From: Pseudoalteromonas sp. GCY
GTDB taxonomy: Bacteria; Pseudomonadota; Gammaproteobacteria; Enterobacterales; Alteromonadaceae
NCBI RefSeq assembly: GCF_016695175.1
Contig: NZ_CP068023.1
Coordinates: 174,501 to 238,500, forward strand
Length of the DNA: 64,000 nucleotides
Direction of reading: 5' to 3'
Shown here: positions 21,374 to 25,124 of the stretch, piece by piece
Position numbering within the stretch: the stretch's first letter is position 1
Layout: each line of letters begins with the position of its first letter
Notes under the pieces: model-generated
What the model saw: only the letters and a program-made list of their open reading frames with translations
What the model was told of the DNA's origin: nothing
The model's database searches: none
Made by a program: the position numbers and the translations under genes

Positions 21374-21718
21374 GTGGAAAGGACTACTGGTGGCGTGATA
21401 CGAATTACTATTATTCCTCTGTTTTGTTGGCTTCTATCACTGATATTTATTTATGTATATCAGTTTCCTGTCCCCATGGTTGGTATGGTCAATGAAACGG
21501 ACTTAACGAGTCCACACTTCTGGTGGACGGCAACACTAAGTTATCTCTTTTACGGATTTATCTGCTTTACTATCCCGCTGATGATGCTTATTCAGTATGT
21601 CATTTCAAAGTCAAAGTGGATTACAAATCACAGCGGGCAAGACAAGCTGCTTTGGTGTAGTGCCATTCTTTTATGTTTTGCTTGGGCTACTTTACTTAGT
21701 CAGTTACACCTTCAATAA
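21374..21718 (+). CDS. small inner-membrane protein of unknown function
   Basis: A 114-aa protein with three predicted helices (residues about 10-30, 52-76 and 93-110) and charged loops. It starts with GTG preceded by GGAGGA 5 bases upstream, a strong ribosome-binding site that supports a real gene. I recognise no family. Its 3' end overlaps the convergent cNMP-binding gene by 23 bp. Confidence 0.65.
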   Translation: MERTTGGVIRITIIPLFCWLLSLIFIYVYQFPVPMVGMVNETDLTSPHFWWTATLSYLFYGFICFTIPLMMLIQYVISKSKWITNHSGQDKLLWCSAILLCFAWATLLSQLHLQ

Positions 21719-22157
21719 ATGCATTGAGCTTAGCAATGCGATGGCTCATACCTTCAATAAGCTTGTCTTTGATTTTTTCCCGGATCACATTGGGCAAGCG
21801 TGTTAGTGCATCTGGGGCTATTGCCAATATAATGCTGTCTTTTAACGCTTGTGCGCTAGTACTGCGTTCTCGGTTAGTGATAAATGCGCCTTCACCTAAA
21901 AATTCACCAGGACCAACCTTACCTAAATCATGGGCCGCATCTTGTTTAAAAATCAAAAATTCACCGCTTAACACAATATACAGGCGATTGTCTTTTTCAA
22001 AACGTTTGAAGGCGTGACGCTCTTGCTGCACCAGATATAAGTGACCAAAAGACTCGAGTAACACCTGGCGCTCGGCAAGCGTAAATTCTTTAAAAAACGC
22101 TAAGCGATTGATGATCTCTAGTTGTTTAAACAGTGGGACATTTTCAAGCAGTTTCAC
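21696..22157 (-). CDS. cyclic nucleotide-binding domain protein
   Basis: A 153-aa protein made almost entirely of one CAP-type cNMP-binding domain (residues about 10-125), with a phosphate-binding cassette GPGEFLGEGAF followed by RSTSAQA. There is no helix-turn-helix, so it is not a Crp-like regulator. The C-terminal helix IREKIKDKLIEGMSHRIAKL could dimerise. The ligand is unknown; the cassette has Arg-Ser-Thr-Ser, compatible with a cyclic mononucleotide. It is transcribed toward the small membrane protein gene. Confidence 0.82.
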   Translation of the reverse strand: MKLLENVPLFKQLEIINRLAFFKEFTLAERQVLLESFGHLYLVQQERHAFKRFEKDNRLYIVLSGEFLIFKQDAAHDLGKVGPGEFLGEGAFITNRERSTSAQALKDSIILAIAPDALTRLPNVIREKIKDKLIEGMSHRIAKLNAFIEGVTD

Positions 22158-22218
22158 AGGCTTACATAAGTTAGTACATTGTCTTTATTAAATAGTGGCG
22201 ACTTTTTTTGATTAGAGC

Positions 22219-22317
22219 AATGATTTTTTATTGTCGCTTACACCAATCTACTTGATTATGTCGCCAACTATTTATGTGGATTGGTATATAACGATAAGCG
22301 ACATGAGTTAAATCATT
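22219..22317. repeat. 99-bp interrupted palindrome next to the peptide gene
   Basis: Matching arms are AATGATTT / AAATCATT at the outer ends, then TGTCGCTTA / TAAGCGACA and ACCAATC / GATTGGT further in, around a loop of about 30 bases. It abuts the stop codon of the short peptide gene. It could fold into a long hairpin and act as its terminator, or be a small non-autonomous repeat element. Confidence 0.7.
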
Positions 22318-22494
22318 CTAGCAAGCGGGATCGTACGGCGAAGTAGGGCATGTCATCCCCTGATAGCTGATACAGCCTTTATTGTGTGGTGAGGTAACAT
22401 CATAACCACCAGCAGCTTGCGGTGTAAGCTCATTTGCTAGCTTCTTGCTGTTAGATAAATGTTTTAGTGGTTTTTTATTCAATGTAATTTTCAT
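22318..22494 (-). CDS. short peptide with double-glycine leader, probable RiPP precursor
   Basis: A 58-aa ORF not overlapped by any other gene. It starts at ATG with AAGGA six bases upstream. The N-terminal half, MKITLNKKPLKHLSNSKK followed by LANELTPQAAGG, resembles class I lanthipeptide-type leaders of marine gammaproteobacteria (LNKK...L...LT..GG), with a Gly-Gly cleavage motif at residues 29-30. The 28-residue core that would remain holds three Cys (41, 49 and 58, the last at the C-terminus) and six Ser/Thr. No LanB, LanC, LanM or peptidase-transporter gene lies nearby, so it would be an orphan precursor. The gene call is well supported by ribosome-binding site and isolation; the RiPP interpretation is inference. 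Confidence 0.7.
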   Translation of the reverse strand: MKITLNKKPLKHLSNSKKLANELTPQAAGGYDVTSPHNKGCISYQGMTCPTSPYDPAC

Positions 22495-22519
22495 AGCGAT
22501 TCCTTTACAAAATGTAAGT

Positions 22520-22618: not shown

Positions 22619-22642
22619 AAGCTGAGTCATAATACTCAGCTT
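22619..22642 (-). terminator. ntrC terminator
   Basis: Perfect 9-bp stem AAGCTGAGT / ACTCAGCTT with a 6-base loop, 5 bp after the ntrC stop codon. On the minus strand it is followed by TTCCCC, so the T-tract is short. Confidence 0.65.
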
Positions 22643-22647
22643 GTCGT

Positions 22648-24045
22648 CTAATCTTGAATATTTCTCTCTTTTAGCTTTCTGGTCAACGTATTGCGCCCCC
22701 AACCTATCTTTAACGCCGCATCTTGCTTATGACCATGGCAGGCATTGAGTGCGGATTTGATCAGTCGTGTTTCTAATTGTGCCTGTACATCGGGCCAAAT
22801 ATGGTCTTTTCCTTTACGTAACTCTGAGTCTAACCAAGTTTGGAATGCGTCCAGCCAATTGCCATGCTCTAAGGCGTCAATCTGTTGTGGTTTTTCTAGC
22901 TCTTCGGGCAGATCCGCTGGGGTAACAAGTTCGCCCGGCGCCATTACCGTTAACCAACGGCAGGTGTTTTCCAGTTGTCTAACGTTGCCTGGCCAATGAT
23001 ACGCTTGCATTTTTTGCAGGGCATGTTTGGAGATGATTTTTGGCTCGGCTTTTAGCTCCTTTGCGCTTTTTGCAAGAAAGTGATCGCACAGTGCGGCGAT
23101 ATCTTCAGGGCGTTCACGTAAGGCTGGTAGTTTTAACCTGACTACATTTAGACGGTGAAACAAGTCTTCACGAAATTTACCTTGCTTGACCAGTGTCTCT
23201 AAGTCTTGATGGGTAGCCGCGACAATACGGACATCGACTTTCACGCTGTTGTGACCACCAACCCGATAAAACTCACCATCGGCGAGTACGCGCAATAGCC
23301 GAGTTTGTACGTCCAGTGGCATATCACCGATCTCATCTAAAAATAAGGTGCCACCGTCGGCTTGCTCAAAGCGGCCACGGCGCATACTGTCAGCACCAGT
23401 AAAAGCGCCTTTTTCATGGCCGAACAACTCAGACTCAACGAGATCTTTGGGGATGGCGGCCATATTGAGCGCAATAAAAGAAGCGTCTTTGCGCGGGCTG
23501 TGATTGTGCAGCGCGCCTGCCACAAGCTCTTTACCCGTGCCCGATTCGCCGTTAATCAATACACTCATGCTTGAAGCGGAAAGTTTACCAATGGCGCGGA
23601 ACACCTCCTGCATCGCCGGGGCTTCACCAATAATGTCGGGGCTATTGGCTTTTTCACTGTGGCGCTTTTGCTTTTTAGTTTGCTGGCCTGCACGAAATGC
23701 ACGTTGTACAAGGGAAACGGCCTCGTTTAAGTCGAAAGGTTTGGCGAGGTATTCAAACGCCCCTTTTTTAAATGCGTTGACCGCAGAGTCTAAGTCCGAG
23801 TGCGCGGTCATAATGATCACCGGCAGGTTAGGGTAGAGCCCTGCTATTTTATCTAGTAAGGCCATGCCATCGATACCAGGCATACGTACATCTGAGATAA
23901 GCACCGCAGGTTGCTCATATTCAAGCGCCGTCAATACATCTTGACCACTGGCGAAGCTCTCGGTTTCAAACTCAGCTCGCTTTAATGCCTTTTCTAAAAC
24001 AAATCGGATTGAAGCGTCATCATCGACTAACCAAACTGATTTCAT
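22648..24045 (-). CDS. glnG: nitrogen regulation response regulator NtrC (GlnG)
   Basis: Sigma-54-dependent activator of nitrogen-limitation genes. Residues 1-120 are a receiver domain with phospho-acceptor Asp52 (LISDVRMPGIDG). The AAA+ domain has Walker A GESGTGKEL, the sigma-54 contact loop GAFTGA and Walker B GGTLFLDEIGDM. A Fis-type helix-turn-helix lies at the C-terminus (AALKIGWGRNTLTRKLKE). The length of 465 aa is typical. Its ATG overlaps the ntrB stop (4 bp), so the two are coupled. NtrC boxes are visible upstream of ntrB and glnA. Confidence 0.96.
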   Translation of the reverse strand: MKSVWLVDDDASIRFVLEKALKRAEFETESFASGQDVLTALEYEQPAVLISDVRMPGIDGMALLDKIAGLYPNLPVIIMTAHSDLDSAVNAFKKGAFEYLAKPFDLNEAVSLVQRAFRAGQQTKKQKRHSEKANSPDIIGEAPAMQEVFRAIGKLSASSMSVLINGESGTGKELVAGALHNHSPRKDASFIALNMAAIPKDLVESELFGHEKGAFTGADSMRRGRFEQADGGTLFLDEIGDMPLDVQTRLLRVLADGEFYRVGGHNSVKVDVRIVAATHQDLETLVKQGKFREDLFHRLNVVRLKLPALRERPEDIAALCDHFLAKSAKELKAEPKIISKHALQKMQAYHWPGNVRQLENTCRWLTVMAPGELVTPADLPEELEKPQQIDALEHGNWLDAFQTWLDSELRKGKDHIWPDVQAQLETRLIKSALNACHGHKQDAALKIGWGRNTLTRKLKERNIQD

Positions 24046-25124
24046 TGCACGTTTCCTGTTTCGGTGTTGTCAAAGGGAAGGTAGATACTGAACTCAGTGT
24101 GTCCTGGCCAACTATCGCATTCGATAAACCCTTGGTGTTGCTCTACCAAAGTTTGTGCGATAGAGAGCCCAAGTCCAGAGCCTCCTTCTTTATTTGTGAT
24201 CATCGGAAAGAACAATGTCTCTTTTACCTCATCGGCGATCCCCGGACCGTTGTCGCTGATACGGATGAGTAAAGCTTTTTTCAATAGTCGCTCACCATGA
24301 TGAAGACGGTGTTTAATGCGCGTTGTTATGGTGATCGTACCGTCATGTTGTAGTGCTTGTTGAGCATTGCGCAGCATATTCAGCAGAACCTGCTGAATTT
24401 TGGCTTGATCTATCACGATGGCCGGAATACTGGGATCATAATCTTTTACCAAGGTGATATCCGCATCACGCTCCAAGGTGGTTAACTTAATCACCGATTC
24501 TAACGCCTGATGGATATTACACGGCTCTTTTTGTGGTAACTGATTGGGTCCAAGCAATCTATCTACCAACTCGCGCAATCTATCTGCTTGCTCAATAATG
24601 AGCGTGGCACATTCTTCCCGTTCTTGTTGATCAGTTTCGTACTGCAATAATTGCGCCGCACCGCGGATCCCACCAAGTGGATTTTTTATTTCATGGGCAA
24701 GACCGCGAATGAGGTTTCGAGCTGCCTGAAATTGGTGCATTTGATTGGATGCTTGGTCATAACGCAGGGCATCATCAACACGGCGACATTCCACTAAAAT
24801 ATACGCCTTTTCTGCAAGGTAAACTCGTCTGGCATGCAGACTTAGTGTCGCGACACGATTATCTACAAATACCACGTCTACCCTGTGTTGCTGGCAGTCT
24901 ACGCCATCTTGTAACACGTATTTAGAGAGCCGTGGCAGGTCTATATGATGATGATTAAACACACTATCAATTGCCAGTCCAACAAGCCGTTTAGTGCTTA
25001 GTCCCAGCAGTTCACTACTGCTGTAATTGGCATAGTGGATCAATAAATTTTGATCGAGCACTAAAATCGCGGTTGAGAGAGATTGCCAAACTTTATCCAA
25101 GTCAATCGAGTTATGTTGATCCAT
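24042..25124 (-). CDS. glnL: nitrogen regulation sensor kinase NtrB (GlnL)
   Basis: Cytoplasmic two-component kinase that phosphorylates or dephosphorylates NtrC under control of PII. An N-terminal PAS domain (residues about 10-120) is followed by the H-box GLAHEIKNPLGGIRGAAQLL, N-box NMLRNAQQAL, G1 DNGPGI and G2 GGSGLGLSIA. There are no membrane segments. The length of 360 aa is typical. A perfect NtrC-type palindrome lies just upstream of its start, so the ntrB-ntrC pair is probably autoregulated. Confidence 0.96.
   Translation of the reverse strand: MDQHNSIDLDKVWQSLSTAILVLDQNLLIHYANYSSSELLGLSTKRLVGLAIDSVFNHHHIDLPRLSKYVLQDGVDCQQHRVDVVFVDNRVATLSLHARRVYLAEKAYILVECRRVDDALRYDQASNQMHQFQAARNLIRGLAHEIKNPLGGIRGAAQLLQYETDQQEREECATLIIEQADRLRELVDRLLGPNQLPQKEPCNIHQALESVIKLTTLERDADITLVKDYDPSIPAIVIDQAKIQQVLLNMLRNAQQALQHDGTITITTRIKHRLHHGERLLKKALLIRISDNGPGIADEVKETLFFPMITNKEGGSGLGLSIAQTLVEQHQGFIECDSWPGHTEFSIYLPFDNTETGNVQ

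Follow-up and report, generated by a model that had tools for sequence, protein, structure and literature searches.

A short gene in a 64,000-nucleotide stretch of the Pseudoalteromonas sp. GCY genome (the window, meaning this whole stretch as analyzed) appears, judging from sequence, to encode a class I lanthipeptide precursor on which LanB, LanC and a C39 exporter encoded elsewhere act in trans, a reading to which we assign a probability of about 0.85. It draws on the gene itself, its conservation, its paralogues, an enzyme cluster and the co-occurrence of leader and LanB, and from these we infer modification, ring formation, export and a role for the product. Processing in trans is the most economical account. 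Class I lanthipeptides of this genus are already known, and the larger finding is the dispersed precursor family.

The precursor gene and its conservation

The ORF lies on the minus strand (22494-22318) and comprises 58 codons and a stop; the plus strand across 22318-22494 contains four stops. It was taken as a gene on the basis of its translation, matches in the genus, conserved neighbors and core dN/dS. The predicted peptide consists of the leader MKITLNKKPLKHLSNSKKLANELTPQAAGG (residues 1-30; 22405..22494, minus strand), which ends in TPQAAGG and is detected by the leader profile described below, and the core YDVTSPHNKGCISYQGMTCPTSPYDPAC (28 residues; 22321..22404, minus strand), with the predicted point of C39 cleavage directly after Gly29-Gly30. 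The core has Cys at core positions 11, 19 and 28, the last being C-terminal, and six Ser/Thr residues. A ribosome-binding site, AAAGGA (22501..22506, minus strand), is followed by ATG 6 nt further on, and AAGGA-type sites also precede the other precursor genes of the same genome. An earlier note on this DNA had described the ORF, its ribosome site, the Gly-Gly and the composition of the core, and these features are all present on the minus strand. It had also placed the gene between ntrC and a cNMP-binding gene, which Pfam matches of the neighbors bear out: a sigma-54 activator response regulator (ntrC-like; 22648-24045, minus strand) is located upstream, preceded by a PAS/histidine kinase gene (24042-25124, minus strand), and a cNMP-binding-domain gene (21696-22157, minus strand) is located downstream. 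The kinase and response regulator form an ntrBC-like pair, with a glutamine synthetase gene still further upstream. The peptide itself matched no Pfam or NCBIfam family at E <= 10. A match to NF038153-type leader models (lant_leader_L1a), against which the earlier note had proposed a search, was likewise absent at E <= 10, and only one of 12 relatives gave a hit (E 0.16).

Neither nutrient control, which the same note had suggested, nor control by NtrC/sigma-54 found support in the sequence: the best -24/-12-like site had 7/12 matches, and 300 shuffles gave this same best value most often. Three sigma-70-like sites were found vs 2.1 expected, thus no promoter above chance, and the terminator scan returned no site vs 0.4 expected. 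Between ntrC and the precursor gene, a 9-bp hairpin (22619..22642, minus strand; fold z -3.88) that is absent from the terminator-scan output suggests that the two genes are transcribed separately. When the upstream regions of the 16 leader-sharing genes of this genome (see below) were compared, the best 8-mer, with one mismatch allowed, occurred in 11 of 16 regions vs 9, 11 and 10 in three shuffles, and the ribosome site was the sole common element. Directly downstream of the precursor gene there is a segment rich in inverted repeats (22190-22317; GTCGCTTA...TAAGCGAC; fold z -2.74). Three longer or more specific repeat patterns were each single-copy across the window and the searched loci, a search that passed over eight loci holding the same place. 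A mobile element is not claimed here, as the longer repeats had no further copy within that scope.

The proposal of the earlier note depended on homologues in related genomes, and these were found: 47 of the 108 genus genomes gave a match at E <= 0.01, a count that takes in paralogues. A protein database search (E <= 1) returned three matches, which were the gene itself, a P. byunsanensis protein (80% in the matched region) and a variant of 46 residues. The latter agrees in the leader and the first residues of the core, differs at its end, and is possibly a disrupted copy. Neighboring genes were checked at 23 loci. Among the 15 closest (L020-L034), the cNMP gene was directly downstream in all 15, and ntrC was upstream in 12 within the fetched flank. 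A copy 98% identical to the gene occupies the same genomic place in P. flavipulchra NCIMB 2033. One locus (L035) had neither neighbor. At three others (L036, L037 and L038), a relative, shorter in its third ring region and oppositely oriented, is found on the far side of the cNMP gene, which suggests that linkage between peptide and cNMP gene is kept even where the position has moved. In one genome (G045:C1:3485181 and 3486351; L022), the precursor and cNMP genes are tandemly duplicated, 1170 bp apart.

The core is under purifying selection, with a pooled dN/dS of 0.119 at which synonymous sites are near saturation. This value comes from 10 pairs among five syntenic sequences (L001, L024, L025, L028 and L032). 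It leaves aside 13 close copies (L020-L023, L026, L027, L030, L033, L034, L037, L038, L042 and L043), two that were missed by the search pattern (L029 and L031) and the more distant L035 and L036, and adding both of the latter gave 0.111. In the leader, synonymous sites were saturated and dN/dS was not computable. The motif [ST]SP[HY]xxGC[IM][ST]YxG[MLW]TC fits all 12 aligned cores, and Cys11 and Cys19, each with Ser/Thr at -6, are kept in every one of them. For the third Cys, a Ser/Thr stands at -6 in nine of the 12 cores and is absent from that position in three. Core position 13 varies between Ser and Thr among orthologues, an exchange that fits a residue predicted to be dehydrated. Since conservation of the core extends over many species of the genus, the product probably has one fixed extracellular role, e.g., competition or signaling. 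It should be noted that the copy in G021 (L029) lacks the usual ATG and that the copy in G062 is interrupted by a stop, which indicates that the gene is not essential everywhere.

The enzyme cluster and the dispersed leader family

The source genome contains one match each for LanB, LanC and a C39-peptidase ABC exporter, all in a cluster at C2:4112441-4120694. The order is lanB, lanC, a precursor on the opposite strand (4117018), C39-ABC and an HlyD-like adaptor. LanB is a 1042-aa protein with both the glutamylation and the elimination domain (PF04738, 437 bits; PF14028, 213 bits) and matches NisB (E 8.6e-29). LanC, encoded directly 3' of lanB, is a stand-alone 401-aa protein with PF05147 that matches NisC. 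A second precursor (4109851) was found 2.4 kb past lanB with an oxidoreductase gene in between. The gene in the window sits outside this cluster; measured along the contig, 3.9 Mb separate it from lanB, a distance that shrinks to ~0.26 Mb should the contig be circular. A precursor inside the enzyme cluster is usual for class I lanthipeptides but does not strictly define them. Thus, the enzymes that the earlier note had placed elsewhere for a class I-type precursor, together with the C39 exporter and an HlyD-type adaptor, were indeed located away from the gene. Near the lantibiotic cluster, a long frame (L012:10446-14993) contains repeated adenylation/condensation-like modules and looks NRPS-like.

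A profile of 12 leaders (11 from the source genome and one from P. byunsanensis) detected 16 genes in the source genome at E <= 0.05, 13 on C2 and three on C1, so the further leader copies that the note had proposed to look for do exist. A 17th match (E 0.42) contains a stop and was excluded. Every one of the 16 encodes a core with at least two Cys, and 2/16 are located within 3 kb of lanB-lanC. The leaders are short, have the consensus form LNKK...TPxxAGG, and are 46.4% identical over 120 pairs. Identity of the cores over the same number of pairs is 24.5% vs 22.4% for shuffled cores. Similar leaders with unrelated cores are expected if a shared leader brings different cores to one set of enzymes. 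A protein search for leader relatives gave 78 database proteins, many of them nameless; those with names are hypothetical or uncharacterized, with the sole exception of one named 'Natural product' (P0011). They include proteins of P. citrea (P0060) and Thalassomonas (P0013 and P0034) and one Colwellia record.

We then compared the occurrence of leader and LanB over the genus. LanB was detected in 51 of 108 genomes and the leader (E <= 0.05) in 52. The leader was present in 51/51 genomes with LanB vs 1/57 without it, the exception being a single weak match (E 0.0014) in G095 (Fisher p 2.5e-30, genomes counted without correction for shared ancestry). LanC (E <= 0.001) was detected in 51/108, that is, in 50 LanB genomes plus one below-cut-off match in G017. 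G001, the remaining LanB genome, gave one leader and no LanC match. LanB genomes carry from 1 to at least 71 leader matches (median 21; total at least 1314 in the 51 genomes), with 10 or more in 41 and three or fewer in four. Counts in eight genomes are lower bounds because 75 candidates were scored there, and a separate search of one relative (G026) gave 73 matches, one with a stop. Among 394 genomes drawn from the order, five had the leader (E <= 0.001), namely G000, G012 and three outside the genus, as found with a profile built from Pseudoalteromonas that more distant leaders may escape. The three from outside the genus all have LanB, and a leader is ~1.6 kb from a LanB stretch; in one of them (G203), LanB occurs as two pieces on two contigs.

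Predicted processing and alternative explanations

In the proposed pathway, the single LanB of this genome would recognize the 30-residue leader and dehydrate Ser/Thr residues of the core. LanC would then close thioether rings by adding the three Cys, and these rings may be Ser5-Cys11, Ser13-Cys19 and Ser22-Cys28. The core has a calculated mass of 3034.26 Da when unmodified, which three dehydrations would lower to 2980.23 Da and six to 2926.20 Da. The C39-domain ABC exporter and the HlyD-like adaptor would cut after Gly-Gly and secrete the product. The same leader and enzymes would serve all 16 dispersed precursors, whose cores are mostly unrelated (about 70 precursors in one relative). The three residue pairs are equally spaced (permutation P 0.009 for this particular spacing, 0.05 when any shared spacing of 2-8 is allowed), and the ring pattern is therefore offered as a hypothesis only.

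It is also possible, but unlikely, that the peptide is an unmodified double-glycine product resembling class II microcins, which would use the C39 exporter only, keep its Cys as disulfides or free thiols and leave LanB and LanC to the adjacent precursors. In favor of this, there is a Gly-Gly leader as well as a C39 exporter, and the gene is far from lanB. LanB could indeed act on nearby precursors alone, which would be a point against shared enzymes, and the co-occurrence of leader and LanB would also be expected from dependence on C39 alone. However, near and far precursors belong to one leader family by their profile scores (62.9 and 55.3 bits for the two close to the cluster vs 58.1 bits for the gene studied here), the leader tracks LanB over the 108 genomes, and the alternation of Ser and Thr at position 13 among orthologues also speaks against an unmodified core.

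Much less probable is that the ORF is a relic or a chance frame that is out of use. Its isolation, a promoter not above chance and the apparently damaged copies in G021 and G062 would agree with this, but the low core dN/dS, with synonymous sites near saturation, and the conserved position do not. The lowest probability of all goes to modification as another RiPP class by the one YcaO-domain protein of the source genome: this protein is a 725-aa OsmC-YcaO fusion on the other contig (C1:348286), no leader match is close to it (the nearest on C1 is at 667023), and the distribution of the leader is explained by LanB. Among these explanations, we favor a class I precursor modified in trans.

Relation to known lanthipeptide systems

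Pseudorosins A-C are described in the accessible text of PMC12819058 as class I lanthipeptides of Pseudoalteromonas, and reportedly come from the PsfB system found in Pseudoalteromonas flavipulchra S16 (Wang et al. 2023, as cited). They share genus and class with the precursor reported here, and P. flavipulchra NCIMB 2033 is the strain that holds the nearly identical copy in place. PciA of Pseudoalteromonas citrea DSM 8771, in the available part of PMC9993889, belongs to a class I lanthipeptide cluster and was produced in E. coli without extra tRNA-Glu. By description it is of the same genus and class, and P. citrea encodes the leader relative P0060. The part of PMC11015633 available to us reports a P. 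viridis cluster of LanC-like, LanB, C39 and ABC-transporter genes, and names thalassomonasins A-B of Thalassomonas actiniarum as closest to this class I cluster. These are lanthipeptides of a related marine gammaproteobacterium, similar by description, and the leader relatives P0013 and P0034 come from Thalassomonas.

The closest parallel in layout is with the prochlorosins and synechococsins (PMC10783134 and PMC12328550, in their accessible parts), where one enzyme set faces many scattered precursors with a common leader and varied cores; 29 such precursors are given for ProcM and 79 for SyncM, both class II enzymes (PMC10783134). The same layout was found in our genome, with 16 dispersed leaders, one LanB and one LanC, and sharing of the enzymes is predicted. 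The difference is in the components, which are a class II LanM and a Nif11 leader in the cyanobacterial systems vs LanB, LanC and the short leader here: the sole LanC-domain protein encoded in the genome is a stand-alone enzyme next to LanB, and the peptide has no Pfam family at E <= 10. It seems likely that Pseudoalteromonas has a class I equivalent of the prochlorosin system, in which a single LanB/LanC pair with one C39 exporter would serve tens of scattered precursors (16 here, and 71-73 leader matches in one relative), mostly unrelated cores being mixed with lineage-wide conserved ones that would have a fixed role. In the accessible parts of the open-access literature (including PMC10885120, PMC10456417 and PMC10727000), a body of text in which subscription journals are little covered, we found no account of tens of dispersed substrates in a class I system. 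A large mining study was confined to genes near cyclases and, by its own account in the accessible text, for this reason missed distant prochlorosin precursors (PMC7268733).

Mining in the vicinity of enzymes would overlook 14 of the 16 precursors of the source genome. If one class I pair truly accepts tens of unrelated cores, these would be a naturally promiscuous LanB and LanC, of use in peptide engineering. The many-substrate strategy already described for class II enzymes in marine cyanobacteria would in that case exist in class I too. The member with a conserved core provides a defined molecule for asking what such peptides do. Several LanC-domain matches in the genus (G007:C2:466813, G052:C2:175119, G093:C22:184694 and others) are located in frames of ~890-930 aa, and these may be LanM-type class II enzymes that occur besides LanB.
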